Of a DNA stretch of 64,000 nucleotides, positions 35,854 through 62,988 are shown piece by piece. Numbering within the stretch: the first letter of the stretch is position 1; each line of letters starts with the position of its first letter. The stretch is from assembly GCF_042242105.1 (NCBI RefSeq), contig NC_092014.1:2068874-2132873 (forward strand). The letters run 5' to 3'. The notes below the pieces were generated by a model. That model saw only the letters and a list, made by a program, of their open reading frames with translations. It ran no database searches and was not told where the DNA came from. A program made the translations under genes and the position numbers. Source of the DNA: Pempheris klunzingeri. Lineage: Eukaryota > Chordata > Actinopteri > Acropomatiformes > Pempheridae.

Positions 35854-38800
35854 TCAGGCGCGGTGAACGAAGCCGTCGATGCTCTTCTGGATGTCGGCCA
35901 TCTTCTTCAGCACGTGGTTGACTTTGGCTTCGTCAAACTCCAGACACACAAACTCTGAGTCCTGGGACGGACGGACAGACAGGCAGACAGACAGACAGAC
36001 AGACAGGCAGACAGGCAGACAGACAGACAGGCAGACAGGCAGACGGGAGAAAGACATTTTATTACAACACATTATCATATACACCGAGCGTCGTATATGA
36101 AAATGTTTGACTTAAACTTTATTGAGATGTACGGTATTCACATGCCAGGAGGACTCAGGACAATTTCTCCCCCTTAAAGGACAATTTCTCCCCCTTAAAA
36201 GACAGTTTCTCCTCTTAAAGGACAGTTTCTCCCCCTTAAAAGACAGTTTCTCCCCCTTAAAAGACAGTTTCTCCTCCTTAAAGGACAGTTTCTCCCCCTT
36301 AAAGGACAGTTTCTCCCCCTTAAAGGACAGTTTCTCCCCCTTAAAGGACAGTTTCTCCCCCTTAAAAGACAGTTTCTCCTCCTTAAAGGACAGTTTCTCC
36401 CCCTTAAAGGACAGTTTCTCCTCCTTAAAGGACAGTTTCTCCCCTTAAAGGACGGTTTCTCCCCCTTAAAGGACAGTTTCTCCCCTTAAAAGACAGTTTC
36501 TCCTCCTTAAAGGACAGTTTCTCCTCCTTAAAGGACAGTTTCTCCTCTTAAAGGACAGTTTCTCCCCCTTAAAGGACAGTTTCTCCCCTTAAAAGACAGT
36601 TTCTCCTCCTTAAAAGACAGTTTCTCCTCCTTAAAGGACAGTTTCTCCCCTTAAAGGACAGTTTCTCCCCTTAAAAGACAGTTTCTCCTCCTTAAAAGAC
36701 AGTTTCTCCTCCTTAAAGGACAGTTTCTCCTCCTTAAAGGACAGTTTCTCCCCTTAAAGGACAGTTTCTCCCCCTTAAAGGACAGTTTCTCCCCTTAAAA
36801 GACAGTTTCTCCTCCTTAAAGGACAGTTTCTCCTCCTTAAAAGACAGTTTCTCCTCCTTAAAGGACAGTTTCTCCCCTTAAAGGACAGTTTCTCCCCCTT
36901 AAAGGACAGTTTCTCCTCCTTAAAGGACAGTTTCTCCTCCTTAAAGGACAGTTTCTCCCCCTAAAGGACAGTTTCTCCCCCTTAAAGGACAGTTTCTCCC
37001 CCTTAAAGGACAGTTTCTCCTCCTTAAAGGACAGTTTCTCCCCTTAAAGGACAGTTTCTCCTCCTTAAAGGACAGTTTCTCCCCTTAAAGGACAGTTTCT
37101 CCCCCTTAAAGGACAGTTTCTCCTCCTTAAAGGACAGTTTCTCCCCTTAAAGGACAGTTTCTCCCCCTTAAAGGACAGTTTCTCCCCCTTAAAAGACAGT
37201 TTCTCCCCCTAAAGGACAGTTTCTCCCCCTAAAGGACAGTTTCTCCCCCTTAAAGGACAGTTTCTCCTCCTTAAAGGACAGTTTCTCCTCCTTAAAGGAC
37301 AGTTTCTCCCCTTAAAGGACAGTTTCTCCTCCTTAAAGGACAGTTTCTCCCCTTAAAGGACAGTTTCTCCTCCTTAAAGGACAGTTTCTCCTCCTTAAAG
37401 GACAGTTTCTCCCCCTAAAGGACAGTTTCTCCCCCTTAAAGGACAGTTTCTCCCCCTAAAGGACAGTTTCTCCCCCTAAAGGACAGTTTCTCCTCCTTAA
37501 AGGACAGTTTCTCCCCCTAAAGGACAGTTTCTCCCCCTAAAGGACAGTTTCTCCCCCTTAAAGGACAGTTTCTCCCCCTAAAGGACAGTTTCTCCCCCTT
37601 AAAGGACAGTTTCTCCTCCTTAAAGGACAGTTTCTCCTCCTTAAAGGACAGTTTCTCCCCTTAAAGGACAGTTTCTCCTCCTTAAAGGACAGTTTCTCCC
37701 CTTAAAGGACAGTTTCTCCTCCTTAAAGGACAGTTTCTCCTCCTTAAAGGACAGTTTCTCCCCTTAAAGGACAGTTTCTCCTCCTTAAAGGACAGTTTCT
37801 CCTCCTTAAAGGACAGTTTCTCCCCCTAAAGGACAGTTTCTCCCTGCCACTGTTGCCTAATATAATATCTGCTCCTGTTTGAACTGAATCTTTGGTCTCT
37901 TAATTAAAGAGTTTGGTCGGAGCGTCTTGAGATAACGCTGGTATGAATTGGCGCTGTATAAATAAAGATTGATTGATTGAAGCAGAAAATGCGCGTTACT
38001 GCAGAGACTCTGAGCCAAAGCGGCCCGGACAGGGTGACCTCTGCAGGTCGACCCCCGGCCCGTGCTGGACTGATCCGCCTGGGGGAGGTCTGCTGGGCCC
38101 GCAGCGTCCCCGGCATTTTACAGGCCAAACAACACAAATCTAATTAATCTCTGATCTTTCCTGATGCGGTTCCAACATTAAGCTCCTTCATGAACAGGAA
38201 AATACAACAACGTGATGGCAGGTAAACAATTCTTAAACCCATTAAGAGTGCAGAGGCCAAGCTGCACCAGCTACAGCTAAAGCTTCTATCACAACCAGAT
38301 TAATGGTCAAACGAGGCACAAAATGTTAAAGGCAGTTCTGCAACTTATTTTAGAAGCACTTTTTGTCATATTTATTGAAATTGTCATAAGAGCCCTGTAG
38401 CATTCAATAAAGAAAATATAGTTTGACAAAAAAAAGTCCAGTGTTTGTGGCTGTCACGGGACGGTAACACACCTCATAAATCTGTTTCATTCAGTCCGCC
38501 TGCCTGCACACATGGATGCTCACTTCAAGGCTAAAGCTAGCGAGGCAGGTGCACAAGGAACGGCGGAGAAAGAGGCGTCAGACGCCCACTGAGCCAAAAA
38601 CAAGAGGCCACAGAGGGGAAACTCTGAGCTAAAGCCAACGTTACCTTCCCGACGGATATGATTTATACGATTGTGGCGCTGTGGAGGGAAGCCTGAGAGC
38701 TGCGTGGAGCCGTATTATCAGTGGGATACTTTCAAAATCAGCTACTCTGCCGAGGCTTGGAAGGCTTACAGGTAGAAAAATTAGAGGAGGAATAACAATA

Positions 38801-42451: not shown

Positions 42452-42545
42452 GTTTTCTTCCTGTCACGTGTCACGTGGAGCGGATGGATAATATCACGTG
42501 AAGTCCGGCCCGGCACGGCATTGTGGGAGTTGTAGTTTTATGTTA
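42452..42545 (-). promoter_or_regulatory. commd1 promoter: three CACGTG E-boxes and a ZNF143-type site
   Basis: CACGTG occurs at 42465-42470, 42472-42477 and 42495-42500, immediately upstream of the start codon. 42519-42537 reads on the minus strand AACTACAACTCCCACAATG, a good ZNF143/THAP11 SBS match. No TATA box is seen, typical of a housekeeping promoter. CACGTG boxes could bind USF or MiT/TFE factors. Confidence 0.6.
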
Positions 42546-43132: not shown

Positions 43133-44660
43133 AGTGCTGCCCTCGGGGTAACGGCCCGTCATTCTTCTTCTTTTTTTTTTTTTACATTTCTTTTTATTTT
43201 AACATCCGTTTATCCGTTGTCAGTGGTGAGAGTACATTTACTAAAGCAATCCAGTACCAATTGTGGAAGAAGTATTCAGAGCCTGTAATAGATTGTTTAA
43301 AAGAAGTGGACGTAGCTTCCGGGTCTGAAAAGTGAAGCCAATGCGGAAGTGCCTTAAACCTGCGTCCTTTTAAAATTCTCCTCCTTCAGCTAAATAAACT
43401 GTTTTAAACCCTCATGGCTCAGCTGGAAAAAGCAGCTGAAAACAGGCTGTTTTTCTGATGGAAAGCGTGAGACTTTTTTGTTGTGGTTCTCACAGGGAAG
43501 CGAAGCTGCAAAGCCACGATGATTTTATAGACCATGATGCATTGCTGTAGATTAACTACAGCAGTAAAATGAAACATAAACACATGAATGCAGCAGTGAT
43601 ATTAATTCAGAAGCATTTTGTTGCAACATGAGTACTTTTACTACTCATCCATAAGTACAGTTTGCTAATAAATATTGGATAAGTCTACTTTAAGTTGATT
43701 AATTTTGACATTTCATACTTATTACTATGACCTTAAAAACATATGCCTTTAACCTACTTTAGAATTAAACGATTCATGACAAAAACTGATCGTAAACAGG
43801 TTTGGAGGTTATTTTATTGCATTAATTAGCATCATTTATTATTACTGGTTACAGCTTCTCTTCTCCTGCTGAAGTGATAGAGGCCCCTCGCATCATCTTG
43901 GACTCATAATGGAACAAAAAGATTTCTCCAGACTGCACATTTCTTCATGCATGTTGCAGACATAATTCAGCCCTGGTCGTGATGACGATAATTATATAAT
44001 TTAGAATGACGATGTGATAAATGGGGAAATTTCAGCTCACTTTCTGCAGAGACACACGGCTATTGTTGTTTCCTTCAGTTTAAATCGGTTACTTGTGTAC
44101 ATTAATAAATTATCTGCCACTGAGGTGCTCCACCTAAGAAATAAGGTTTTCTTTTACATAAGGATTGTTAAATGCAGCTGTTTTTCGTCTTTAATGTAGA
44201 TGCAGATCCTCCACTGGACAGATTGTTTTCAGCCTTTTATTGGGAGGCATTGGTGCTGGCTGTGAGACTTCGGTTCAGCTGAATGATCTCCTCCCCCCTC
44301 ACTTGAAATGGAGACGGACGAGGCAAAGCGGAGCCACACTGTGAGTGTCTCATATTAAAGGAGACGTATTCTTCTCATTTTCAGGTTCATACTTGTGTTT
44401 GGGGTCCTGCTTGAACATGTTAACATGCTGTGATGTTCAAAAAAGCTGCTTACTGCTCTGGTCAGCCTCTTTCCGAACACTCAGAGGACATTACCGGTTT
44501 TGCTGAGAAAACAGTCCTGAGCAAAATAACTCACATTCCCATTTTGCGGTCGTATGAACCATCAGATGCACCTAAGAGAAAAAAGTCTTAATGATCTAAT
44601 GTTGTGTTCAAACAGGTGATAGTGGTGTAACGTGGGATTTCCCAAATGATTAACACGCAG
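43133..44660. other. Intergenic stretch between commd1 and the deaminase cluster
   Basis: No gene is recognised. It has a T-run near 43166 and AT-rich text. The region 44180-44360 holds a small ATG frame ending in a GTGAGT donor (44309-44340), which I could not connect to anything. Confidence 0.4.
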
Positions 44661-44688
44661 ACGGACCAGAATGGATGCTGAGCAAAGC

Positions 44689-44694
44689 TTTAAT
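44689..44694 (-). terminator. Poly(A) signal ATTAAA of deaminase-like gene A
   Basis: ATTAAA lies within a block (ctttctgattaaagctttgc on the gene strand) repeated almost exactly at the 3' ends of paralogues B and C. This conservation identifies it as the shared 3' end. Confidence 0.65.
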
Positions 44695-44937
44695 CAGAAA
44701 GAACAGAACATCACTTTAACATAAGTGTACAGGACAATAATATAAGCACCAAAGATACTGAGGAACCGTTCCTTCTTCCTTCCTTCTGTTCAGTAAAGTA
44801 GATAAAGAGTGCTACTGGAAATTGAAATGGATTTAAATCATAATTATGTTATTAATTTTGGCAAACGTTCTCCTGCGTCAGGGTAACATTGAATACTGAT
44901 TTTTGGAAAGGGTTGGCAATGTCAATGTTTAAATACT

Positions 44938-45044
44938 CATCTCATTTTTTATACCGCTTATCCGTGAGGGTCACGAGGGATTTGAACCCGGGACCTTCTT
45001 GCTGTGAGGCAACAGTGCTGACCACAGCACAGCCATGCTGCCCC
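44938..45044 (-). mobile_element. tRNA-derived SINE in the 3' UTR of gene A
   Basis: On the minus strand it has an A-box-like TGGTCAGCACTG (45013-45024) and a B box GGTTCAAATCC (44978-44988), about 25 bp apart, in the text cctcacagcaagaaggtccc typical of a fish tRNA-derived SINE. It lies between the stop codon of gene A and its poly(A) signal. Confidence 0.7.
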
Positions 45045-45671
45045 TTGTTTAAATACAACAAGGGAAATTTAGAATTTAGAGGCACAAACACCCCAATGAC
45101 TTTGTGTAGTTTTTTTAAATGAACAGTTTGCTGACCACAATCAATCATTTCACGAGCGTCAGTGAGTTTTTAAAGCATAAAGCTGGAGACAATCGCTACT
45201 TTTGTTAATGCTAACAAATCCCACGAAAAGATCAGTGCCGTGTTGGTGTGTCTCTAAATACTTTTCTGACCTCCCCACCCTTACTGAGGTACCTGTGGCT
45301 CTAATATAAACTTTCTGGTGAGTATTTGGCACAGTGGGTGTGGGTCAAAATAAAATACAGCAATGGAACTCTATGGCACTGAGGAATAAGCTTTGTACAC
45401 ACACACAGTGTTTGTAGTACTGTGGTTATATTCCTTGTTGGTTTTGGTCTTTTTCAAGAGATTTGTGGACAATAAGAAAAATATAAAAATCCCCGCCTTA
45501 TCCTTTTGAATGCTTAAAGATGGACCAGTTCCAAAATTCAAGTGATATATAAAAAAAAAAAAAAGTCAAATGCCGGAGAAGGGAGACATTAAATCTATGG
45601 GAAGAAGAGAAAAGAAGTCATTCTTATTAAGCCGAAGTGATTGTTTTGATCAGATTCTCAGGATCTTACAG

Positions 45672-47288
45672 TTATTTTCCCCATCCCCACTTCCTGCCCC
45701 GCTTTTTCCCTCCGCCACCTATGAGTCTTATACCCTTGCCCCTTCTTTTACCTTTACGCTTGCGCCCTTTTCTACCCTTGCGTCGCCCTTTTTGCTTGCG
45801 CCCTTTCTTAGCCACGCCACCTCTTCCACCCTTGCGTCGCCCTCTTTGCTTGCGCCCTTTCTTAGCCACGCCACCTTTTCCGCCCTTGCGTCGCCCTCTT
45901 TGCTTGCGCCCTTTCTTAGCCACGCCACCTCTTCCACCCTTGCGTCGCCCTCTTTCCTTGCGCCCTTTCTTAGCCACGCCACCTTTTCTACCCTTGCGTC
46001 GCCCTCTTTGCTTGCGCCCTTTCTTAGCCACGCCACCTCTTCCGCCCTTGCGTCGCCCTCTTTGCTTGCGCCCTTTCTTAGCCACGCCACCTCCCGTATT
46101 CCTGCAGCCTTGTTGAAGACCGCCACCTCCTCTGCACTTGCTCAGTCGTCCATCCATCTCGTTCCCTCCCATTCCCTCCCACATGCCTGTGGCCACCTCG
46201 TTACCCATTCCTTCGCCTGGTGCGATTTCTTCGCCCGTGAATGTGTCTTGAGGGACTGTGCTTATTTCCTCGTCTACGTCCTGCTCGTGATTTGCCGGGC
46301 CGGTGTTTGTAACACATGAGGTCGTGACACCTTCGCCTGAGGAGCAGCTGGTGCACTGGAAAGGATCATCTCCAGGTTTATAACAACGAAATATGTTATC
46401 CAGCCCAAGTTTCGAAATCAATGAAGTATTGACTACCTCAGTAAACACAAACGCATAACCTCTCCAGTTCTGAATGACATTGTTAAAGCCGGCAGGGATG
46501 TCGGCCTCATTTGTTTTTGTACACGTTGGGCCACACGGGGATTCTTTTGAGTAGATGATGAGGAAGTTACCCTGACTGCTTGTAACGAGGGGCTGTATGT
46601 TTTCTAGAACACGTGACAGCGCTCCTGACTGTGCTGCTGCCACCATCCTGGTGCCGCGGTACACTTGACCCCCTGAAACCGTTTGCGTCACCGTGTCTGC
46701 TGGGTCGTCCTGAAAGACTTGCTGAAGACTGTCTGGGTCTTGGTTCTGGGGGACGTTAACGGCCAGACTGAAGGTGTCACCAAGTGCATACCTGCCAAAG
46801 GAACACATTACATGACTTTTTAATGAGTATCTTGGTTCAGGCAATTTAAGGTATGTGATGGTAGTATAGATAGACAGTTTGAATTGTGGAAGTGTGAATA
46901 CACAGGTAAACTGAGGACAAATTCAGATTGATTGATTTAAAGGCCCTGTGGTGCCCAAGAGAAAGTCTACATTGCCAGAGAAGACATTTAGCAACAGGCA
47001 TGGCAAATGCACGCTGAGTTTGAGATCCCATTGATGAAAACTAGGGTCAAGGGAAGATATGACGGTGAATTTTATTTGAATTTAGGAGTTAAGAGTTCAG
47101 AGTCACAGATAACAATTGGTCCAGCTGTAGTAGTAATACTGGTAAAAAGACAGAAGAGAGCTACAGACTCACTCATCTTTGATGCCCTCTACAGTACTTG
47201 CGAGCCAGTCCTGGTTCACAGCAGCCAGTCCGCTTCCAGCAGACAGGAAGAAGGCAAAAGCCACAGCCATCCAGCACAGGCCAGCCAT
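45672..47288 (-). CDS. Secreted AID/APOBEC-like deaminase paralogue A, HxE lost, cationic repeat tail
   Basis: Coding exons 47173-47288 and 45672-46791 join in phase 2 to give 411 residues. Residues 1-22 are a signal peptide (MAGLCWMAVAFAFFLSAG). The core aligns with paralogue C from YALGDTFSLAVNVP through VLENIQPL, YSKESPCGPTC (Cys 125 and 129) and IFRCYK...CTSC. Where B and C have HAE, A has Gly-Ala-Leu or a gap (about residues 95-97), with 7 residues fewer between VAA and RVL. The zinc histidine and catalytic glutamate are therefore missing and deamination is unlikely. Residues 274-381 are six 18-residue units (GVAKKGRKQRGRRKGGRG), then a further basic end. I infer a secreted, nucleic-acid- or microbe-binding pseudoenzyme. 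Family call by motif only. Confidence 0.78.
45765..46088 (-). repeat. 54-bp tandem repeat coding the Lys/Arg tail of gene A
   Basis: Six 54-bp units encode 18 residues each, with R/K exchanges at the unit ends (GGRG, GRKG, GGKG) and one E for Q. The opposite strand is also open across the array, which is a by-product of the repeat. Confidence 0.95.
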
Positions 47289-48493
47289 CTGCACACAGAT
47301 CAGGTTTAATAATAGAGTGGTTTTAACAAAAGGCATTGTCTCTAAGCACAGAATGAACAACAGCAATAAAAACAACTAAACCAAGTGCACAACAGACTTA
47401 AAGTGTAAATTGTAAAGAAACACCTTAAAGTTGTAGTTACAGGAGTCGAGCAGATTGAATCATTAATTTGGTTTATATAATAAAAAATCTACATATTAAG
47501 GAATTAACTTGACATTTAAGGTTGAAACAGTGTCCCGTTATCATGCATAGTTCAAATATTGCTTTTCTGAATGTTATAGACGCGTCCAAAAGCTGGACCT
47601 GGATAGCTGGATGGCAGAAGCTCACTCTCTCTCAAAGGCTGTACGCTGTGTTATTGAAGGCATTGAAGATTGAGCAGCACTTAATCATTCATTTTTTGTC
47701 AATATGCGTGTATTTTGTTATTTGAAGTTGCTAAAAGTAATTTCATGCGCTCTGTAAATATTTAAATGCAAATGTTGCGCTGGAAAATTTAGAGGATTTG
47801 TTTACAACTTCATGAAAGGCTTAAAGGCAGCAAGTTAGTGTCTAGTTTTGATTCTCCACAGTGCCAAAAGTGATGCTCGTACTGAAAACACCCAACAGGG
47901 ACTCTACAGATCAATTCGCCGAACACTGAACATTTTCTTACATTATACAGTTGGCTGACTTGGAGGCTGATGTGAAGATGCAACCTCGGGCTTTAGCTTT
48001 GTAGTACCTCAGTTCTTTACCTGTGCATATAATGAGATGAAATCAAAGAAGAAGAAAAATACAATTAAGAAAATGCACAGGTACGTCTGTAGAGAGAGCC
48101 CCCCCCCCCCGATATTAAAGTTAGAGACAGCAAACATACATTTTCTAAATACGAGAGAAGAAAAGAAAGGGAAATAAAGCACAATAACATATTTGCACTG
48201 CTTTCATACGCTGCTGTCATACCTTATTTGTTAAGTACGTTTAAGGTACTTTAAGATCTTTTTTTAAAGGTGTGAAATGAGGAGTGACTGTGAGGTGAAG
48301 CAGCAACGCTAGATAGGCAGACCTAGTTACAAAGAAAGTGCAAAGTGAAATGGGAGGTGAATTGCCGAGAACTCGAAATACAAACGTTTACCTGCATGTG
48401 TCTGAGGTTTACTAATGTCAAATGAATATAGGAAAATATGCTCGGCATTTCAAAAAACGAGGAATGAAAAGTGACACGTTTTATTGTACGTAC
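47289..48493 (-). other. Intron 1 region of gene A
   Basis: No further coding exon was found. A small second non-coding exon as in B and C could not be located with confidence. A C10 run lies at 48101-48110. Confidence 0.4.
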
Positions 48494-48580
48494 CTACTTT
48501 GTAGAGGAGACTCTTCCGGTTATCTTATCAGTGTTTGAAGGGATGTTGCTGCTGCAGTAAACACAGTCAGGAGGAAGTGA
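48494..48580 (-). promoter_or_regulatory. Non-coding first exon of gene A; TATA position replaced by an A tract
   Basis: The donor AAAGTAG|GTACGT matches that of gene C (CAAAGCAG|GTACGA). The exon's 5' part (ccttc/cctgactg..tttactgcag) aligns with B and C. Just upstream, 48581-48604 is a run of about 22 T (A on the gene strand) exactly where B has TATTAAA and C has TATAAGAG. The upstream flank still aligns (gccatattggccatgtcctc). Transcription start not defined. Confidence 0.55.
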
Positions 48581-48604
48581 AGTTTTTTTTTTTTTTTTTT
48601 TTTT

Positions 48605-51600
48605 AGAGGACATGGCCAATATGGCATCATACCCTTATTTGAACATTTCTTTCAAAATGTAGGAGGAGGAAGATTAGAAAAAGGGGTAAAGCTATTATCT
48701 CAGCAGAATATGAGAAGTTAATGGGGTTTATGGTGCAGTTAGTAAAGGGGCTCTTAGATTTTGATGAAATGTATACAAAACCACAAGTAGAGTAACAATT
48801 TTATGTTATGAGAGAAAAAAAAGACATTTTTCCACATGCATCAGGTGCAATAAGATGGTCTAAAATCTAAAATCGGCTCGTGAACTGTCAAATCTGTTTT
48901 GTGGATTTACTTACTACTTAGTACAGAGCACAGGCAGCGCATTGACTGTGTAGAATAGAATAGAATGCTTTTTATTGTCATTATACAACGTATAACTAGT
49001 ATAATGTGTTTTTTAGTCTGTATGCTCTTGCCTTGATGCACCCGTAGCGCCTGCCAGAGGGCAACAGGTCAGACATGTGGAAACCAGGGTGTGAGCTGTC
49101 CTTGATGATATCTTAGGTTAATAACTGTGTACGTGACAAATAAAGGTCTTGAAATAAAAATGACGTGCAGACAGAACTTATGTGCAGGTTGCAGCTACAG
49201 TTTTTAGTTTTAAGTGTCCTACATTTATCTGCTGCATTGATATTACTAAACTTGCTGAAAGCAGCCTCTCTAATCTTTAAAGTAAATCATTAAAGAGCAC
49301 ACTCAGACATCAATGCAGTACAATAAAGAAATCACCTGGAAAGCTCGCGCTGCAGTCCACAGCATGAAATGTGAATGTTTTTCTAATGAAAAAAATGGCG
49401 AATGGCAAACATTTTTCCATTGTTTCATGGCACAATGTGTCGGACAGACGTATGTCCCTGTTGTCTGCATACTGCATGGAAAGTACACACTTTGTGAGGG
49501 CAGCTGCAGTACGTACTATAGTAAAAGGTAGTAAAAAGTATGCGATTTGGAACAAAGGGACCGTTTATTCTTTTTCTCTTGCGTTTTTCTTTTTGCGTTA
49601 TTCACACACTCGTAGAGCGAGTCGTCCATCAAATGGTGGTGTCGCGTGTGTCCTCGGGGCAAGACACTGAAACCCAGCTTGTTCCTGAGGCGTAGCTTCA
49701 GTGTGTGAAAGAATAATCCCCCCTCAGCCTGGATACCTCCTGTATGGATGATATATAAACTGCTGAATGTGGTGTAAAAGCGCTATGAGTGGTCAAAACG
49801 ACAAGAAAGGCATTTTACAAGTACAGTCCATTTTCCTTTTGACCATATAGGAGCCTGGGGGTGTGATCAATTGTTTCCCAGGCGTTAGTTGGATCCCTGG
49901 CTATTTCCAGGGCAGTCGAGGTGGCATATCAGGAGTAGAGTGGTAGAGAGATGGCAGATAGACAGAACTCCTGTCTTGCTGTCCGGGCTAACCAGCACAG
50001 CCTAACAATAGCTATGGTGGAGGAACAAAAATGAATATGAAATTTAAAAGTCGTGCATATTTTGGGTCAAATTGCTCTCAAAAGTTTTGGGGAAATTGTG
50101 AGTGTGCATTTTTCTTTTCTACACGTTCCATAGACCAAACTCTTAAGCGATTAATAGCAAAAATGATCTGCAGATAAACGATATTTAAAATAATCTTTAG
50201 TTGCTGCATTAAACTTTTCCTAACGGCTAATGAAACCAGCTGTGACCTTTGTGTCAAAGAGGTTGTGCCTTTTGTGCAGCAGCCAAACAAAAACTCAGCG
50301 GTCAACAAAGTGTCACAGTGATCCCATGCAGCACCTCTGATATCTTCGTCATCAAGAGATAAGATGAAGACTTCTGCCTGGTGGATGACTCACAGATTCA
50401 CCTTCCTGTTTTCACACTGCCTGTTCATCAAAACCACAAAAACAACCCGGAGGCCTGAGCTTAGACATACTTTACTAGTCTCAAAAGAAGACGTAGTTTA
50501 TAAATTTATAAACCAGAATTTACCAGCCCAGGCCAGGATTAGATTAGATTAGATTAGATACAGGATAAAAATGTTTTACAGATGATATATACAGATTCGG
50601 TGCTATGAACATACTATACTGCATAACATGTGTATACATATATGGATGGATATAGACATAATACACAGATTAGATTAGAATATACAGATTAAAGTGCAAT
50701 GAACATATTAAACTAGTGGACATAATATATGGATATATGGAGCAAGTATTGGTCATGATTAGGGTTTGGAGATTTGGCTGAACCCAGCCTTTATTTCTGA
50801 CTTTTAGCTCACACTGTTTGTCGTTACACACAAAACCTAATTTTTAGTGTGCGAACGTAGTTTTTCTAAAGGGTTTAACTTGAGAGAGGTCAGAGAGCTG
50901 CCGAGCTGTTGCGACAGAATATCTAACTCTTCATTATGACTTGAGTGTTATCAGCACAGAAGCAGCAGGAACAACAGTCACCCTCACAGCAGAAGTAAAT
51001 GGTGTGTTTCACAACAGATGTGCACACACACACACACACCTTTTCTCACATCTGTTATTGTGTCTTTTCCTGGATATAATAAAATGATCAGTTTGGCTGT
51101 ATTTTATTTATTTTCACGGTTGGCAGTATTCATGATAATAAAAATGAAGGAGTGTCACAGTTGTCTCACACTTTGGATAAAGAGTTTCCAAATTCCCCAT
51201 TTGGCCGGATACGAGCACCGACACTAATCTTGGGTCTGGAAGGACCTACAGTGGACAGTGGGTCTGGAAGGGAAACTGACTCTTGGCTGTTTGGCAGAAG
51301 CAAATGGCAGCTTTAGTGTTTCCAGCAGACGTTGTGCTGCCCTTCAGTTCCCAGGCACAACCTTACGGGGCTTTTCCTCAGCTCCAGGCTCTCTGCGTTT
51401 GTGTCATTTGCCTTTTTTTTAACGGTCATTCCCTTGAGTATTTAACTTGTTCGTTGTATGATAGATTTAATTTAGAAGCCTCTCAGAAAGCCTCTGTCTT
51501 GTGTTGTCGAGGATGTTTGCGTTTCATGGTGTTTTAGATGTCTGTACGTCAGCGCTTCTGGAGTAACAAGGGGTATAAACATGTATATCAAAAAGAGGCC

Positions 51601-51647
51601 AGATGTGGTGTGTAAATTCTGTTGTGTGTTAGAATTGGTGCCATATA
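48605..51647. other. Spacer between deaminase-like genes A and B
   Basis: Retroelement-type pieces lie at about 48955-49110 (tagaatgctttttattgtca) and 49640-49835 (gtaaaagcgctatgagtggt ... tacagtccatt, a fish SINE-like tail). A GATTA run lies at 50539-50560 and a CA run at 51022-51039. No gene is recognised. Confidence 0.5.
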
Positions 51648-52133
51648 CAGTGAGGGAAATAATTATTTGATCCCCTGCTAGTTTTGTAAGTTTACCCCCT
51701 TATAAAGACATGAACAGTCCATAATTTTTATGGTAGGTTTATTTTAACAGAGAGAGACAGAATATGAAGAAAAAATCCAGAAAAAAACATTAAATAAAGG
51801 TTATAAATTCATTTGTATTTGAGTGAATTAAGTATTTGATCCTCAAGCAAAACATGACTCAGTACTTGGTGGAGAAACACTTGTTGGCAAACACAGAGAC
51901 GTGTCAGACGTTTCTTGTAGTTGGTCACCAGGTTTGCACACAACTCAGGAGGGATTTTAGTTACAGATGCTCTCCAAACCCTGAAGGTTTGGAGGCTGTC
52001 GCTTGGCAACTCGAAGTTTCAGCTCCCTCCACAGATTTTCTATGGGATTAAGGTCCGGAGACTGGCCAGGCCACTCCAGGACCTTACTGTGCTTCCTCCT
52101 GAGCCACTCCTTTGCAGCATCACTGGCTGATGT
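51648..52133 (-). mobile_element. Tc1-like transposon, 3' half
   Basis: A terminal repeat starting CAGTGAGGGAAATAATTATT follows a TA. An inner direct repeat (ttaagtatttgatcc, 51828-51842) shows the IR/DR structure of Tc1 elements. On the minus strand 52090-51840 reads [20 protein letters not shown] and then SICNLKIPPELCANLV, the end of a DD34E transposase including the final catalytic Glu. The other half is missing. Confidence 0.85.
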
Positions 52134-52442
52134 TAATATAATATATTATTAGTATATAATGTGTGGCAGAGCCATGACATGAGATGAAGCACTTTTGGAA
52201 ACATTTTAAGTACAGGTTAAATTTTTGAGACTAGCAAAACCTTCAGTCTTGCACCATGCCTCTATCTGAAAATTCAAATTCATTTATTCATTTAAAAATT
52301 GAAGAAGAGGGAGCAAGATATTAGATATATGTTATCTTTAAAATGCTGTTTTGCCTACAGGATCCAAACTGTGAAATGACAGCTGTTATGAAGAGACACT
52401 TGAATGACACACAGACAGAATAGATTGGATGCTGAGCTAAGC

Positions 52443-52448
52443 TTTAAT
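52443..52448 (-). terminator. Poly(A) signal ATTAAA of deaminase-like gene B
   Basis: It sits in the same conserved 3' block as gene A: gatgttctgttctttctgat, attaaagctt, gctcagcatcca on the gene strand, nearly identical between A and B over about 45 bp. Confidence 0.65.
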
Positions 52449-52893
52449 CAGAAAGAACAGAACATCAGAGGATTTGGTAATACTTTACAGAAGTATGGTA
52501 CACAGTGATATGAGTACCGTAAACACTCATCACGATTTACATCAAACTTCTTTACTTTAGTTAATGAATTTGAAACAAAACAATTTCCTCCTTACACATT
52601 CATGGACCAAATTGTGTATCACAGGGTATCAGAAACTGATCAGAACACTGCAAGTAAGAAAACATCGTCGTCAATTTGAAAACTCGTTGAGAAAACGCAC
52701 TGCAAATACAGAAACTGAACACAATACAGATCCCATAACCTCTATAAACACATACTTGCGTATGAGTGCAGGACAAGGGACAAGGGACAGGACTTTGATC
52801 CACTTTGATCTGATTTATTGGCTTGCCTTCATATGCAGATGTCTGCTTATAGAGATGTCCGTTCAATGTCTGTTACACCGGAAATCGTCTTCA

Positions 52894-55156
52894 TCACACG
52901 ATACCTGATGTGCCCAAATACTGCAGACAGGTCGGCAAAATCAGAGGGCAGACAACACAGCACAGCGCACACACACCAGCACAAACCAGACAACACCTTC
53001 TTGCTCTCTGGTTTGGGCCACTGCTACAAGCCTGTCTGCTGCCACTTTGTGAGGAGGAAACACATTCTCCTTCATTAGTTTGTCCCTTTTTTTTGCCCTT
53101 ACGACGCCTTCCTCTGCCACCCTGGCCTCCTCCTGTATTACTGCTGACTTCTGTATTAGGGCCCTCAATGCCACCTTGGGTGGAAGAAACATCTACATTA
53201 GTATTTCCCTTTTTTTTGCCCTTGCGACGCCTTCGTCTGCCACCCTGAGTTCCTGCATTACTTCCCACATTTGTATTAGGGTATTCAGTGTCACTCTCTG
53301 AGGAGGAAAAACTTTCACTTTGCATTATATTTTTCCTGTTCTGACCCCTGCCGCGGCTTTTTCGGCCAACCTCATGCCAGCTGCCACTGCTACCCTGACG
53401 TTGTCTGATATTCCTGTCAGCTTCTGTATTACGGCCCTCAGTGTCACTCAGACTAGGCAGTGAGGGGGACTTTCTTCTGCCACGCTGAGGCTGCGTCAAC
53501 GAAGTGGATGGCAAGTTGTTGCTGGTACCAAATGGTACGTTGTCTGTAACACAATAGTCTGGAACACGGCCATTATCAGAGCACGTTGCGCACTGCACTG
53601 GGTTTCCTCTCCTACAACGGTATATGTTGGTCGCACCAACCGATCCCCCAAGACGCTCAAGGGCTTCACGATGGACTTCCGGTGTTATGGCTGGACCGCT
53701 GCGGGGTTGGAATATATCACTAAACACAACGGCATGGTTGCGCCAGTTCGTAATCTCTCTTATACTTTGGAGAATACTCCAGTGACCTCCTATCCTTGTG
53801 CATCTGTTACTACACGGGGTAGCGCGAACGTAGAAAACCAGCAGATCGTTAGGGTTACGATTCGTGACCAAGGTGTTAAAGTTCTGCAGAATACGGTACT
53901 CTGCATGATCAGCTCTACCATTTTGAACTGCATCAACACACTGTGGTGAAGCCCTACCACTCCTTAACATCCTCCCTAGAGCATCCCATGAAAGAGGCTG
54001 TCCACCACATTTGCGCACAACATCACCCCATTGCACAGGTTCATTAGGACACTGAGTCAGAACATTGTCCCATCTCAGGACTGTGGCTTCAACCACCCTT
54101 GCACTGGTGTACACTCGACAATTATCCACCTCATGCCTCACTTGGCCGCTGTCGTCAGTGACTTGACTGATGTCAAAAACCTTTCTTTCATTGTATGGGA
54201 TGCTGACGGCCACACTGAACATTGGCGGTCTGTCAAAAGAAGCACACACACAAAATCTAAACTAAAAGTTGTCATTCAAAACAACAATGCAGTTAATTGA
54301 AGTTAGCTGGACCAAACCAAACTAAACCAAACTGTGGACGTCACTCACATTCTGCCATTTTGCGTTGGTGTAAACCTGCAATAGGAAACGGATACAAAAT
54401 GTCACTGGTGTGTTTGATCGTTTCATACAAAACAGACGTTCGGAGAGTTTAATAGATGGATGGATGCACTGATCATTGAATGGACACAAACAGGCTGGAG
54501 ATTAGAAAAAGATGATCAACACACAACAGCCCATCGGATTATATTAAAGATGTATAAATAAAGATTTAGACTTGGAAAAACGTTGTGAAATGGAATTACA
54601 AAGGCAACTTGACTATAGTTTGTCATGTTTACTGATTATTATGTTTTAATAAATGTATTGTGTCATTGAAATGTCACAATACATGAAGCAGATGGTAAAC
54701 ATTTCTGCCTCGTTTCACTCTGTTTGTTATAGACGTGGCTACAAGTAAGGTTATCATATAGTTTTTGTTTGGTTTTAGTAAATGTTTGTAACTTTGCACA
54801 CATAAAAAAACAGCATAAAGCCAGAGAATAGAGGCAGAACCAATGTGACAGGAACCCCCCCCCACAAAGGAAGAAAACACTGAAATATATATGTATAAAA
54901 TGTATATCTTATTTTTACACAGTTCTGACCTGAAAGGCCAAAGCACACACTATGAAGAGCTCCCTATCTATTATGTGAAGGATAATTAAATTTGAACATC
55001 AAAATAAGGAATAAGGAAGTTTTCCTCTGAGTCAACTCACCTGTTCAACATCTGACCTACAATTTCAGAAAGTTCATTCTGGTTCACAGCAGACACACCG
55101 TTCCCAGCAGAGAGCAACAAGGCCAGCGTTACAGTCATCCAGCATAGGACGGCCAT
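52894..55156 (-). CDS. Secreted AID/APOBEC-like deaminase paralogue B with cysteine-rich hydrophobic C-terminus
   Basis: Exons 55041-55156, 54349-54375 (27-bp microexon) and 52894-54229 join in phase 2 throughout; 492 aa. A signal peptide covers residues 1-23 (MAVLCWMTVTLALLLSAG). The deaminase-like core has HAE at 156-158 and TPCSNRC with Cys 187 and 191, consistent with zinc ligands His/Cys/Cys and proton-shuttle Glu. A second cysteine cluster IYRCRRGNPVQCATC follows. The region before HAE is about 50 residues longer than in C. After the core come Ser/Gly/Asn-rich segments with two basic blocks (RRRRRKGKKKG and RGRRRKGKKKG). The last 35 residues contain eight cysteines in a hydrophobic run (CCLVCAGVCALCC...), possibly a membrane or lipid anchor. 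Likely an active secreted or surface cytidine deaminase. Substrate unknown. Confidence 0.8.
54349..54375 (-). other. 27-bp microexon of gene B
   Basis: Bounded by an acceptor attgcag and a donor GTGAGT, it keeps phase 2 on both sides and encodes about FTPTQNGR. A and C have no equivalent; their signal and core exons join directly in the same phase, so skipping would also leave an open frame. Confidence 0.6.
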
Positions 55157-56139
55157 CTGAGTGTTTGTAACAAACAGCATCAGCATAGAGGATTAGGCAG
55201 GAATGATAGCAGGGCTAAGTACAATCTCAATATCTCAAAATGCATATAATCTACTGCAGGATGTTATTAAATACAGGGTCCAGCTTTTATATTGAGATTA
55301 TACACTCATGTTTAGACATTAAAATGTGCCAGAAACCACATGAACGTGGCCTGGTCACAACTAAGAGAGACAGAGTGGCTGCTCGTCAACCAGCACACAC
55401 AGTCCTGAGGGTTTTGAGCTGTCACTTTTGCAATATTTTCTCTGCATCCCATGTCTGTCCAAGCCACAGACTGTCCTTAAAGACTGATGACATGTCTTCA
55501 CTTCCTCCCCCTGAACGAAAATGATCACTACTACACAGACTGTGGCTCTAAATACACCCGTCCAATGGGTTAGAGTTGGCTGTCAATCATGACGTCCCCA
55601 CCCCTCTTTTTATTGCATCAAATAACTAATTAAAACCAAACAGGTCAGAAATATGAACACATAAACATACATCAGCGTGATAAGAGCAACATAAAGTGAC
55701 AGAAACCGTCTTTGGGCTTCACTTTTGGGCAGCTGTCATGCCGTCCATCTTTAAACAAAGCCTTTGGTCTGAGCATGGCAGCAACCACAAAGAACAACAA
55801 ATGAAAGGAAAGGCAGACATACAGAAAGAGCAGGAACAAGGAGAGAGTCTGGACGGAAATAACAGTAGATAACAGGAGCGCTGAGACCAATCAGAGGCTA
55901 AGCAGACCACCGACACAGTACCATGCTCACGGTTGGTATGTCTGTTGCTTTCTGGCTTACGGCTAACATTCATGGTTTATAAACCCAACTATTGATTGAA
56001 AAAGGAAAACTAAGTCTCAAAAGCATCTTGTTTCTGTCACCATAAGTAGCCATTTCATGGTCCTGCAAAGGTAGAATTTACAGAGGAAAAGGGAACAAAA
56101 AAAGTTGTCAAACTTCAACAGAATCGTGAGAATGCTCAC
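55157..56139 (-). other. Gene B intron between 5' UTR exon 2 and the signal exon
   Basis: No coding feature is recognised. An 84-codon minus-strand frame (55719-55973) has no recognisable domain. Confidence 0.45.
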
Positions 56140-56163
56140 CTTCACTACCGCTGCCAACAGGAT
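56140..56163 (-). other. Small non-coding exon 2 of gene B
   Basis: tttttag|ATCC...GTGAAG|GTGAGC; 24 bp. It matches gene C exon 2 (60937-60968), which also ends GACGAAG|GTGAG. It could start at an alternative internal AG. Confidence 0.45.
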
Positions 56164-56523
56164 CTAAAAACACAAAAGCAAAGGTAGGAGTAAAAAGTGT
56201 GTATCTCATTTTTATTTAGAAGGATAGCATCACATGCTTTCAAGCTAAGTTTAACTTTTGCATATTGCAAGCAAGCAGGCAAATTCTGTTTCCAAAATAT
56301 CATAAAAAAAGCAAGAAAGAATGTGTTTTTAGTGCCGAGGGCTTTACCGAAATCAGAGTGCACCTTTTTAAATTGTAAATTTAAGACATGGAAATTAATA
56401 CCTCTTATTTTCTCAATCTTGCAGCACATTACTGTCCATTAAAATCTGCTGAGTTTATTTATTTGTCTTCTTTTATTCAATGTTTCAATTTGTACAAATC
56501 CAGCAAATGTGAACGTTTTTTAC

Positions 56524-56605
56524 CTGCTTTTCATGGAGAAAGATGCCCAATGAATTCTTTTGACTCTGCTTCCTTCTCAGTGCAAACAGCTCTTGCAGTG
56601 GATGC
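56524..56605 (-). promoter_or_regulatory. Non-coding first exon and promoter of gene B
   Basis: A donor AAAAGCAG|GTAAAA ends the exon. Upstream on the gene strand, TATTAAA (56629-56635) precedes CACTTCCTTCTGACTGCAT, homologous to the same region of gene A. The AGGAAGTG/CACTTCCT motif resembles an ETS/PU.1 site and is shared by A and B. A CCTTATTTGA block farther upstream is also shared with A. Confidence 0.55.
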
Positions 56606-56635
56606 AGTCAGAAGGAAGTGCTGTGTTTAATAGAG

Positions 56636-58050
56636 GAGAGCCTGAAGGCCAAACCCTCTGAGTGGCACCATTTCCTTATTTGACCGTGTCCTTAAGAAAT
56701 TGTGTAAGTAGTTGAAAGACATCCTGCAGTTTGATTCAGGAAGTTGATAATATTGCATGTACCTGTCATTACTGTTGATATGTAACCCCGACTCGTAACC
56801 TTTGGAGGCCTGCTTATGGTTGACAAAATGTTCAAGAAGGGCATTTTGGGTAGACATAGGTTTAATCCTTATTATTTTCAATTATAATCATATATTGTCT
56901 CCTGTGGTGTACCCCAAGGCTCCATGCTGGGGCCCCGCTTTGTTTTCCTGTGTCATTGCTGCACTGACAGAACGCAGCTATGCTTATCTTTAAAACCGGA
57001 CCTTTAGTTTCTTTGAAGTTGTCTTAAGGATGTCAAATGCTGGACAGCAATTTTTTTTTTAGTTTAATTTTTTAGTTTACTTGAGGTCCTTATCATGAGT
57101 TGTGAAAATAAAGTAAATGAAGCCCTGAAGTTTCCAGTATGTAAAAGGCCCTGGCTGGTTAACTCTTTGAAGAATCTTTGGTACTTAAAGGTTCCTGTGG
57201 TGTAACAAGAGCTCAATTTCCATTCAGTGTTCAGAGCACACTGTTAGTCACCAAAGCCTAATGAACTTGTTACCGAGTCAATCTTTTGAAGTATTTGAAA
57301 ACTACTGAAAACTGGTTCCTATGGATCCTGGTCCTGGTCCTGCTGATGTGGTTCTCCATCAGTCAATGGATGTGCATCTGTCCAAGGCTCCAGCCTGTCC
57401 GTCCTTGGGAGCTGGATCTCTCCTTCACTGTGGTGCTCCCGGAGGTTTCTCTTTTCCCACTGGGTTTTTTGAGTTTTTCCTTCCCGAAGAAGGAGGGTCA
57501 TAAAGGGCAGGTGATGCCTCGGACTGATCCACCGGACTGATCCATTGGCCTCATCGACTGCTGGACTCTTTATTAGATTGTTTGTTCGCTTACATTTCTT
57601 GTTTATTTCAATGAACTTTGTAAAGCACTGTGAGACAACTCTGTTGTGATATTGGGCTATACAAATTAAATTGATTGATTGATTGATTGATTGATCCATG
57701 AATGCTTGCGGTCAGTCTTCTTCTTTGCCTTTGATTGTGCATTGCTCTGTTTCTTGACACACTATTATTTATTCCAGCCCATTTATATGGCTAGATAACA
57801 GGCACTTCTCTGTATAGCACAGTTCCACAGCATCACAAACGACATCCTCCAAAATAATCTTTTTATAATCTCCACCAATTAGTTTTTCTTTTTCTTTTTT
57901 TGTTTGTTTGTGCAGCACACCTCCCTTATGTGAACACATAAGCTATGTAGTGGAGTGACATGTAAAGTATCGGTCAGTTTAACAGGTTGCAAAAATGATA
58001 AGAGACAATGACTGACACAGACTAATCACAATGACAATGCAGAGCCAAAC
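56636..58050. other. Spacer between genes B and C, with a LINE-type 3' end
   Basis: 57300-57694 is a plus-strand retroelement 3' UTR: ctggtcctggtcctgctgat, gggttttttgagtttttcct, tgtgagacaactctgttgtg and a (GATT)n end (57671-57694). It is typical of fish L2-like LINEs or SINEs sharing their tails. The rest is unassigned. Confidence 0.6.
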
Positions 58051-58056
58051 TTTAAT
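58051..58056 (-). terminator. Poly(A) signal ATTAAA of deaminase-like gene C
   Basis: It lies in ctgctctttgtgattaaagt on the gene strand, aligning with the 3' ends of A and B but more diverged. Confidence 0.6.
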
Positions 58057-58739
58057 CACAAAGAGCAGAAAATGATGATGATTTAGTATTTAAGTACAAT
58101 TGCATGAGTATACAGTTTAATGTAAGCAGTCATGTTGGATTTTGAGGTTGATTTACTTCTCAGTTACAGACATTGTTTAGGGTGGAGTCACTTTTATATT
58201 ATCTACCAAATCTCAAGGTTCCCTTTTTTATTTTCATTTATTTATTTATTTTATACCAGCAAAACTATCATTTAATACAGTCAGTTTAATACAGTTACTC
58301 ATTTTATTGTGTGGCTGTTTGAAATAATGAGTAAAGTGCTGAGTTTAGTTTATTTTGTTTTGTTATTTGAAGAAGAGAGAGGATGCCTCTTAACCTAAAA
58401 CCACACTGACACTCCCAAAAATGAAAATGTGAGTCTCTCTCCTCTTCAGACCAAACTGGCACGAGTACAGAACATGACCAAAACCAGTCAGCATTGCGAT
58501 CAACAATAGCCATAAACCTCAATAGTGTGTGTGCAACAGACTAATGGAAGCTCCTCTGTGCCAGTCTAATAAGCTTGTAGATAGAAGTAGAAAGCGTATT
58601 GTTAAGCATAAACTACCTTTTTTTTTTTTAAACTGGATCCAGTTGTGTTTGTGCTCAGGTCCTCATCAGTTGGAGCTAAATCTGAGTGGTGCCCAGAACT
58701 CCTGTGTTGACCACAGCACCTGTTGAGGCTTAAACTAAG

Positions 58740-60233
58740 TTATGCCTTGTTACTGTAACACAGCTTTAAAAGGTTGTTTTCGCTGTAGCACTTGGTGCAT
58801 GTGAGTGCACCATTTACTTTGTAACAACGGAATATGTTGTCACCAACTTTAGATTTCTTAAGCTGATTAAGGGACTCAATTATGTCATCCTCGGGAATGG
58901 AAGTACCATCACTGGTTAGGTCGAATACTTTAGAAAATACAAAGACACGGTGTTCCCACTTCGGAAAGACTTCATTAATCTTCCTTAAGATATTGTTCCG
59001 ATTCTCCAAGTTTGTACACTTTGCACCACATGGAGAAAGGTAAGAATAAAAGACCAGAGAATTATCCTTACTTTTGTCAGCTAAAGGTTGGATTTTGTCC
59101 AGAACACGTGCCTCTGCATGCTCAGTGAATTTCTCAAATTTTTTGAATTTTGCTGCAACCACATTGGTACCTTTGTACACTTCATCCTTTGAAATACTTG
59201 TCTGCACACTGTCAGATTTGTCTTTTTCAAAGACCTCTTTGAGCTTGTCCTTTTCCTGGGTCTTTGGGATGTTTACAGCCAAACTGAACTGGCCCTGGAT
59301 GTTGTAGCTGCCAAAGAGAACAGACACAGTGTTACCTTGTGTGGCGGATGGAGATGGATAAATATGGATAATAAATAGGTGGATTAATGGGTGGAGATCA
59401 TTTTAGAGTTTGGTACTTTCAGCCATACTGTGAGGCGGTACTTGGGCACAGGGTACTTTTACTTAAATGGTATCATAAACATGCTAACTTGGTCACAATA
59501 ACACTAATCTGCTGATATTAAGCCTAATGAATGCATGTTAACCATCTTAGTTTAGTGTGTTAGCATGATAAGATTTGCAAATTGATACGAAATTCAAAGT
59601 ACAAGTATTTGGTCGTTAACCAAAGTATTGGATAAATTAAAAGTTTGACCTCATGATGATGCTAGACAAAAGAGTAGGGGACCATCAAAGTTATTCCAAT
59701 TAATCCTGAGGGGGACATGAAAGTGTGTAGAAAAATTTTTATGGAAAATCCATCCAATCATTGTTGAGATATTTCGCTCAGAACTAAAAATGTCAACCTC
59801 ATGGTGGAGCAGAAGAATGAATGTCTGTTCTGAATGTCATGACAATCCATCCAAAGGCTGAAGCGATATTTCAGTCTACACTGAGCCTACATGCCAACAC
59901 TGCCATCTACAGAGCTGTCTTTAATTTAATTTCTGACAAGGGCCAATAATGCCAGATTGTGCCATGAGAATCACAGTTGATGGGAAGAAAGGGTAACTAG
60001 ACTACGTGGTTATTGTTAGCCAAAACAAGGCCACGGTATGCACATTATTATTTACATTTCATTACATTAAGGAATACTGAAGTCTTTCTGCTTTAGACAA
60101 CTAGAAACAAATTGACTCACTTTTTGATGAATCCCACAATGTTTGCAAGATTATTCTGATCCTTAATGTCCAAGCTGTGTCCAGTGGACAGAAACAAAGC
60201 CAGCAACACAGCCATCCAGCACAGGCCCGACAT
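58740..60233 (-). CDS. Secreted AID/APOBEC-like deaminase paralogue C, compact form
   Basis: Exons 60121-60233 and 58740-59307 join in phase 2; 226 aa. Residues 1-20 are a signal peptide (MSGLCWMAVLLALFLSTGHS). The core begins YNIQGQFSLAVNIP, with EHAEARVLDKIQPL (His 101, Glu 103) and YSYLSPCGAKC (Cys 131 and 135), then FRCYKVNGALTCTKC. HxE and the PC...C motif are about 27 residues apart, within the range of AID/APOBEC deaminases. The two zinc cysteines are three residues apart rather than two, in all three paralogues. No tail follows, so C probably shows the ancestral form. It would act outside the cell or in the secretory route. Known SNAD-type proteins are proposed immune mutators; function here is inferred. 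Confidence 0.8.
59440..59940. repeat. Dispersed teleost repeat in gene C intron
   Basis: The text ggcacagggtacttttactt, catgctaac motifs, cctgagggggacatgaaagt and ccatccaatcattgttgaga belongs to a very common unclassified fish repeat. It lies between the signal-peptide exon and the core exon. Confidence 0.55.
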
Positions 60234-60563
60234 CTGCTCACAGATCAATGAATTAGTAGTATTTTTTAACCATAAAAGAAAGAGGAAAAAGGAAAACTTC
60301 TAGATTCCCCTCCTTGACACATTTGACCCTGCACATGGCAATTTTTTAAATATACGAACCTCTCTATTTAATAGATATCACACTTCCTGTATAGCACATA
60401 CTGCAATAAGCATTGGAATATTAGCTTTAACAGTTAAACCTCTAAAAAAGAGAGGTTTTATGCAAGCTTGCCATATTTAAGAATCAACTTTTAATCAAAT
60501 TTAGCCTGGTCTGAGTTAATGAAAACAGCTAAGCCTGCCATGTTTTGCAATGCTGCATTTAAT

Positions 60564-60581
60564 TAACCCTAACCCTAACCC
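60564..60581. repeat. Short interstitial telomere-like repeat (CCCTAA)3
   Basis: Three consecutive TAACCC units lie in the gene C intron. Confidence 0.85.
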
Positions 60582-60936
60582 TTAAACAGCTATATGTAAT
60601 CACAGAGCAGATAACAATAACAGATAAATATCCATTTGTTGTGACATAAATGTGAAGATTAACACAGAGAACCCCCACCTTCACTAGAATACATATATTT
60701 ATTGTAAACCTATTTGTAATGAATATTTTCTTAATATGCTGACAGACTGTAACAGTAAGTCCACGTACTGTTGGACTAATTGATTACAATAAACTCTAAT
60801 AAACAGTAATTAAATGTTCATACTTGCAGCCCAGTAATATATCGGCCACAGATATATGGTGTCTCCCCAATTTAATATGCTGCACACCTTACATAGTGTA
60901 GGTAAAGTCACCGCCAGCAACAACAGTCAAACTCAC

Positions 60937-60968
60937 CTTCGTCACCGTCGCTCACAAGGCCTCTCGGT
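60937..60968 (-). other. Small non-coding exon 2 of gene C
   Basis: gttttag|ACCGAGAG...GACGAAG|GTGAGT; 32 bp. It corresponds to gene B exon 2 in position and 3' end. Confidence 0.45.
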
Positions 60969-61620
60969 CTAAAACACAACTACAACAGAAATACACAAAA
61001 AGGGCAGGTGTGTTCATCAACTTTGCTTTTTCTCACACACTTGTATGAAAACATTCATTCAAGGATGCTTCGAATCAGCCAAAGATATAAATACCTGGCG
61101 GAGGAGGAGTGTTAATAATGCTGATATTAATAACCACCACTAACGCAAATGGAGCATCCCACTGCCGCTGCTTCACACAGTGTGGCTTTTATTGTGAAGG
61201 AGTCACAGGAAATGCGCTCGGCACTTTGGTTAGTTTTGACCTGACATTGTTGTCAAAGCTGCAATATAAACGGCAGCGGCAGCCGAATTAAAATATAACT
61301 GTATAACTACTATACAAATAGATAATTAAAATGATTATTGTCTGAAATAATTGTTTTCATAGTTCATATTTCAGTAGGTTAAGTTATTACGCAAAACATA
61401 TTGCGCTTCAAATCATTAATAGTGTCACATTTTTGATAAAAATTCAGTTCCTGCAATTTCTGTTTTCTGTTCAATCATCTAAAATAAAATAAGAAAAAAA
61501 ATAAAATAAGTTTGAAGTTTTTGTCTTATCTATCGTCTTGCTGTCACAGCCAAGAACTGCTGTGGTGAGATCGTGTTACTGTATAGTTTAGTTCAGTTTT
61601 CCATAAACATTTCATTATGA

Positions 61621-62120
61621 GTTTTTTTTTTCTTTCAAAGTGATACAATTTACAATTATACTCGTTCTTACGAAACAGTTCAGTATCACATGTTTTGCAC
61701 AAACATAGAAAACAAATATAAAAAGAAAAGCACTAACAGAATAACCCGAGATAACACATAAAACAGTGCCTTTCAAGAACATAGCTTCTCTTTTGGACTG
61801 TAGCAGGTGGTCGTCTCTAGATACGGTACATGGTTGCAAGGGATTCAAAAATTAGTCAAGTCATCAGAAACATCAAAGTCCTTAGTAAAGTCAACAAAGG
61901 GTCCCCAAATCTTTTCCAATTCTTGTTGCCTTGACTTATGTATATATGTTATTCTTTCCAAAGGTAAGCTAGACGACATCTGTTTTAACCATTGGGAGAC
62001 GCCAGGTCCATTCATATTTTTCCAGTTTATAGCAATACATCTTTTTGCTATCAATGAGCTTAAATCAATAAAAGTACTTTCTGCTTTACTAAAGTTATGT
62101 TTATACGGATATATAGCCAT
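61621..62120 (-). mobile_element. LINE C-terminal relic in gene C intron 1
   Basis: The minus strand 61845-62120 encodes AINWKNMNGPGVSQWLKQM and RITYIHKSRQQELEKIWGPF, matching the C-terminal W...W region of fish L1/Tx1-type reverse-transcriptase proteins (remembered pattern). A short reading frame and an A-run (61622-61631 as T on plus) follow, consistent with a 5'-truncated insertion. Confidence 0.65.
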
Positions 62121-62209
62121 TATAAATAATCGCAGTGCTCTTTAAAACAGAATACAACAGTTACAAATCTGAATTCTTAAGCTTTATTCCTGAATAGTGT
62201 AGCTCGTAC

Positions 62210-62278
62210 CTGCTTTGTTGGATGTCAGCTGGAGGCTCTGGGGTTGTTCCTCTCCTCAGTTTTCCTCTTCTGCAGTGA
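62210..62278 (-). promoter_or_regulatory. Non-coding first exon of gene C
   Basis: The donor CAAAGCAG|GTACGA matches gene A exon 1. The 5' part, gactgtgttcactgcagaag on the gene strand, aligns with A and B. Start approximate, about 25-30 bp below the TATA box. Confidence 0.55.
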
Positions 62279-62300
62279 ACACAGTCCGAAGGACGAGACA

Positions 62301-62308
62301 CTCTTATA
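62301..62308 (-). promoter_or_regulatory. TATA box of gene C
   Basis: TATAAGAG on the gene strand, positioned as TATTAAA is in gene B. The upstream flank (gccgtctcgttctcccc) also aligns with B (ggccttcaggctctcctc). Confidence 0.6.
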
Positions 62309-62988
62309 GGGGAGAACGAGACGGCCAAACTGCACTCGACATTCAAATTCCTTTCATTGAATTTATTCAAAATGAAGAAGATTAACAGTGAGGGAAAAAA
62401 TAGCAGCTTCAGTGAAGCGGGACCGATGAAGTTAAAGCGACACGGCAGCTTCATTTGAGTATCTCATGAGAGTAGATTAGTTTCATGCTAACTGCTGACA
62501 CTACAGCCAAACTAAACAGCAATGGTTTCATTTATTCATGTGGTTTTTGTGAAGCGATAGTGTCGTGTTGCGATTATACAACAGTTACCAACAGAATAAA
62601 AGAAGCAGCCAAAATGGATTCACATTGTGGAGTTCACAGTTCACTCCAAAAATAGAAAAACTGACTATTAACTGAAAAAAACAGTCAGGTCAGTGGACCC
62701 CTATGTAATTATACTTAGCTTACCACTCCATTAAATAGGCCGACCCTAAGTAACATCCTGGCAACAGAGAACAAATCTATTTAAATGAAAACATTTGCTT
62801 ATTGGTTCTCCTGAGAGAAAATAACATGAAATGAATAGCCTTTGTTAGTGACAAGTGATTAAACTTTGAGCTTAAACTATTGGCTTTCTATTATGATTGT
62901 TCCTGTGATAGCTTGAAAAGTGATTGTACTCTCCTGAGAAAATGTAATGCCTATCCGTGCTGTCATGCTGATTTGAGCACGTTACATA
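62309..62988. other. Upstream flank of gene C
   Basis: No coding sequence is recognised. Confidence 0.45.

Follow-up and report, generated by a model that had tools for sequence, protein, structure and literature searches.

A tandem cluster of three SNAD1 genes upstream of commd1 in Pempheris klunzingeri, one of them probably encoding a pseudoenzyme with a basic repeat tail

The 64,000-nucleotide stretch of contig NC_092014.1 of P. klunzingeri that was analysed, hereafter called the window, contains three SNAD1 genes of common design, A, B and C, all of them on the minus strand and upstream of commd1. They are read here, with moderate confidence, as an old tandem cluster in which C and B would be secreted cytidine deaminases and A a non-catalytic binder of nucleic acid. 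The SNAD1 family and close-set SNAD1 genes are already published; what is unusual here is A, one member of the group. With one paralogue that has lost the active site next to two that keep the motif, the cluster provides a built-in natural control, and A suggests that some SNAD functions may need no deamination.

SNAD1 is known in fish, with immune and cold responses described (PMC11004436), and SNADs are stated to be the only animal AID/APOBEC-like enzymes with a secretion signal, their extracellular role being given as unknown (PMC11004436, PMC8201067). Three zebrafish SNAD1 genes are placed between 42.04 and 42.09 Mb on chromosome 15 (PMC11004436, Table 1), 13 genes of unknown function as well as SNAD1 proteins in plasma are reported from carp (PMC13402138), and nurse shark plasma is reported to contain SNAD1, for which uptake into infected cells was proposed (PMC9207270).

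Organization of the locus

45672..47288, minus strand: gene A, SNAD1-like probable pseudoenzyme, 411 amino acids, coding exons 47288-47173 and 46791-45672 (splicing; Pfam SNAD1)
52894..55156, minus strand: gene B, SNAD1 carrying an insert and a tail, 483 amino acids, coding exons 55156-55041 and 54229-52894 (splicing; Pfam SNAD1)
58740..60233, minus strand: gene C, plain SNAD1, 226 amino acids, coding exons 60233-60121 and 59307-58740 (splicing; Pfam SNAD1)

Each of the three genes, as spliced from the sequence, has the donor GTGAGT and an acceptor with terminal CAG, and its signal-peptide exon is joined in phase 2 to the large exon. The signal exons of B and C are 79 % and 69 % identical, respectively, to that of A over 81 nt, and the late cysteines (C...CxxC...C, the SNAD1 C-terminal three-cysteine cluster), the promoters and the 3' ends likewise align across the three genes. 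The original prediction was thus borne out in these structural points, which included three minus-strand genes next to commd1, a shared signal-peptide exon, a phase-2 join, a later C...CxxC cluster and a homologous promoter and 3' end. With the C protein as query, tblastn matched the A locus at E=2e-32 and the B locus at E=7e-14; the likeness among the three loci is more than chance. No fourth copy was found in the window by tblastn with the A, B and C proteins, the best match beyond the three loci having E=0.51, and Rfam at the gathering threshold gave 0 matches in the window.

The commd1 gene is on the same strand; its exons that begin at 42463 and 40709 match COMMD1_N above the cut-off, and those at 40709 and 36111 match the COMM domain below the cut-off. 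A short repeated unit (36112-36485), which in the ORF listing is open in several frames on both strands, adjoins the last commd1 exon. A galactosyltransferase gene (24804-23590), presumably b3gnt2, has the same strand as A, B, C and commd1; no literature on commd1-b3gnt2 synteny in teleosts was found. Elsewhere on the minus strand are a reading frame with a CUB domain (20235-20915; 26.8 bits, cut-off 21.4) and two frames, 1985-2311 and 18319-18636, that are near-identical across most of their length and are perhaps copies of a repeat, the former with a Spin-doc zinc finger match under the cut-off (22.0 against 27.3).

Family assignment

The curated Pfam SNAD1 (PF18744) cut-off of 25 bits was passed by all three spliced proteins, A scoring 28.9 (E=1.3e-6), B 47.6 (E=2.5e-12) and C 80.3 bits (E=2.4e-22), and the designation of the region as a SNAD locus was therefore correct. 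B and C also matched SNAD2 (PF18745; 25.0 and 32.8 bits, cut-off 25), but scored higher with SNAD1, and both fell under the cut-off of 27 for SNAD4 (PF18750; 17.2 and 21.2 bits). In A (1.79) and C (1.61) hydropathy peaks at the hydrophobic N-terminus, and the N-terminus of B aligns with both. All three proteins would probably be secreted.

The profile match is common to A, B, C and published SNAD1 proteins such as zebrafish si:dkey-96g2.1, LOC795173 and LOC110437941 and carp Cap31/snad_810, with which the cluster also has in common a signal-like N-terminus, the late cysteine cluster, few exons and several neighbouring copies. B and C share the HxE...PCxnC motif of these proteins, whereas A is without HxE; B differs in the long stretch before HAE and in its hydrophobic end. 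A and B further differ in their long basic tails, as far as the wording of the PMC11004436 main text goes: that text does not contain "lysine", "arginine", "repeat", "inactive", "pseudoenzyme" or "tandem", and the founding SNAD paper (Krishnan 2018) may already cover inactive or basic-tailed members.

Neither a PDB sequence search with C alone nor a PDB profile search with the profile of A, B and C returned a deaminase, and both results were counted against the favoured reading. When bacterial and archaeal genomes were scanned with the A-B-C alignment, 19 pattern matches came up, 0 of which were confirmed. AlphaFold2 models from the three-row alignment were poor for both C (mean pLDDT 48.5, pTM 0.49) and B (mean pLDDT 41.0, pTM 0.28). 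With the C model, Foldseek gave 778 matches up to E=10 and no PDB match at E<=0.001; among the best 50 of the 778, triosephosphate isomerase came first and an APOBEC3G complex ranked 26 (E=0.12), and these matches were weighed neither for nor against a deaminase fold.

Active-site motifs of B and C

53899..53907, minus strand: B, HAE, residues 147-149 (motif position)
53800..53817, minus strand: B, PCSNRC, residues 177-182 (motif position)
59112..59120, minus strand: C, HAE, residues 101-103, His predicted to bind zinc and Glu to be catalytic (motif position)
59016..59033, minus strand: C, PCGAKC, residues 130-135, predicted zinc cysteines (motif position)

HxE together with PC(x3)C is present in two of the three proteins, with a Glu-to-Pro spacing of 27 residues in B (H147/P177) and 26 in C (H101/P130), close to the 27 or so first noted for both. 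This HxE-x26/27-PCx3C arrangement fits the deaminase motif rule HxEx25-30PCx2-4C quoted in PMC11004436. A second H-x-E in B, HRE at residue 225, is unrelated to the active-site motif. Counted by hand on the alignments, the stretch from VVAA or its equivalent to the motif is 10 residues long in C, against 59 in B and only 3 in A. C, with 2 residues beyond a core of net charge +5, would be a small secreted zinc-dependent cytidine deaminase, and B, with its 59-residue stretch before the motif, is a second probable deaminase.

Alternatively, all three proteins could be secreted scaffolds or nucleic-acid sensors that perform no deamination, the motif of B and C holding a structural zinc. This would agree with the published statement that SNAD activity is unknown (PMC11004436, PMC8201067), which was also counted against the favoured reading, and with A, which suggests that a paralogue is able to lose the site. 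HAE and PC(x3)C nevertheless occur at canonical spacing in both B and C, and only 2 sequences in a published comparison of 38 proteins are given as lacking the motif (PMC11004436), which makes an entirely non-catalytic family group very unlikely here. Given those 2 sequences, and active-site loops that vary according to the same source, motif loss is rare, yet has precedent.

The lost motif of A, and its basic tail

46617..46625, minus strand: A, GAL, residues 95-97, where B and C have HAE (alignments)
45766..46093, minus strand: A, basic tail, six Lys-Arg-Gly repeats of 54 nt / 18 residues each (TRF, 6.1 copies)

A retains PCGPTC at residue 124, but without H-x-E. Its core (residues 1-201) has zero histidines, the sole histidine of the protein being at 207, just past the core, and the alignments show an 18-column gap after FVFTEV. 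Because GAL replaces HAE, the core is devoid of His and a pair of loops has been cut short or is absent, A is very probably without catalytic zinc binding or deamination, and so very probably not a deaminase. Where three deaminases, all secreted mutators, had been predicted, B and C stand as two likely enzymes that keep HAE and PC(x3)C, and A, which has lost the catalytic His and Glu, becomes a likely pseudoenzyme whose tail is basic and built of repeats.

The core of A has a net charge of -9. Its tail of 210 residues contains 75 Lys/Arg, 14 Asp/Glu and 61 Gly, giving a net charge of +61. Compared with their consensus, the six repeats show 7 codon differences that change the amino acid and 2 that are silent, a result counted against the favoured reading, and such near-identity of the copies points to a young expansion.

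A could also be a functionless gene in decay, with a tail that is no more than a 54-nt minisatellite open in frame by chance. The lost motif and the two shortened or missing loops would be expected of such a gene, the repeat copies are nearly identical, and another frame of the repeat as well as frames on the opposite strand are likewise long and open. On the other hand, A has kept its signal exon, its splice sites, all seven cysteine positions of C (one of them in the signal peptide), its promoter, its 3' end and a frame of 411 codons. In a random-change simulation of 2000 copies of the A core, which spans all time since the duplication and not only the period of A after the motif loss, 21 copies were stop-free with 20 % of the sites changed, 2 with 40 % and 0 with 60 %, which speaks against long decay, though not against recent decay. 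Decay is considered unlikely, though it is the most serious of the alternatives.

Under the favoured reading of A as a non-catalytic binder, the protein, which has kept the signal exon and the cysteine framework and lost the zinc-binding and catalytic His and Glu, would not need to deaminate; most likely its +61 tail would attach it to nucleic acid or microbial surfaces. It might work alone or beside an active paralogue; such a partnership, like the substrate of B and C and an immune role of the cluster, is something we infer from the genes as read here. A bolder form of the idea, drawn by analogy and decidedly unlikely, is that A is a purpose-built secreted pseudo-deaminase whose dead domain would pair with active B or C while the Lys/Arg repeat tail holds foreign nucleic acid, the cluster then encoding a two-part extracellular editing complex, a counterpart of ADAT2/ADAT3. 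Yeast ADAT3 is an intracellular protein. In the ADAT2/ADAT3 tRNA deaminase pair, as described in PMC7713142, one subunit no longer has the catalytic Glu and includes a part that binds nucleic acid, which makes this heterodimer a model of the possible role of A; unlike A, however, yeast ADAT3 is stated there to retain the zinc site.

Tail and hydrophobic end of B

52936..52992, minus strand: B, residues 452-470, hydrophobic and rich in cysteine, possible membrane anchor (highest 19-residue hydropathy of the protein, 2.79)

The tail of B comprises 215 residues with a net charge of +21 and a hydrophobic, cysteine-rich end. Since this basic tail ends in an anchor-like segment, B may act at a membrane.

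Proprotein convertases cleave at the motif R-x-[KR]-R. The tails of A and B might be the working part of these proteins, short basic antimicrobial peptides being freed by such enzymes and the deaminase-like core serving as a carrier. The motif occurs five times in A, always inside the repeats, six times in B (one in the core, two overlapping) and 0 times in C, a distribution that would suit peptide release. It is, however, to be expected in any Lys/Arg-rich stretch, and B retains the full deaminase motif, so that this explanation is given very little probability.

Shared flanking sequences and age of the cluster

48494..48700, minus strand: A, putative promoter plus 5' non-coding exon with its end at 48494 (homologous in A, B and C)
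56523..56741, minus strand: B, putative promoter plus 5' non-coding exon with its end at 56523 (homologous in A, B and C)
62210..62420, minus strand: C, putative promoter plus 5' non-coding exon with its end at 62210 (homologous in A, B and C)
44647..44713 (A), 52401-52467 (B) and 58009-58075 (C), minus strand: shared 3' end with ATTAAA poly(A)-like signal (alignment)

In the aligned promoter and 5'-exon region, ACTGCA and AAAG(C/T)AG|GTA are invariant in all three genes. An 8-mer that we take to be an ETS/PU.1-like site lies close to the putative start of A (48579) and to that of B (56620) but is absent near that of C; it occurs 9 times in the window with both strands counted. Over 67 nt the 3' ends of B and C are 88 % and 64 % identical to that of A, the A-B 3' end being the most alike part, which conversion or constraint could explain.

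The recent tandem growth that had been proposed was not upheld. The proteins are 34-46 % identical (34.4-45.5 % over the aligned part), dS is 0.86-1.25 (0.91-1.25 by NG86, 0.86-1.15 by YN00), and the introns of the three loci had no match to one another below E=1e-3 within the window, so that recent duplication was rejected. Pairwise dN/dS, which spans all time since duplication and does not isolate the period of A after its motif loss, was 0.41-0.72 (NG86) or 0.52-0.83 (YN00). In the first 34 codons dN was 0.29-0.37, compared with 0.53-0.72 in the core exon, and dS was 0.81-1.20 compared with 0.90-1.33; we read the signal exon as more strongly constrained than the core exon, on the evidence of few codons.

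Short stretches around GCAAAATGG...GAATGTGAGT are alike at 44527-44550, 3' of gene A, and at 54341-54365 on the minus strand, in the B intron; this likeness is perhaps due to chance.
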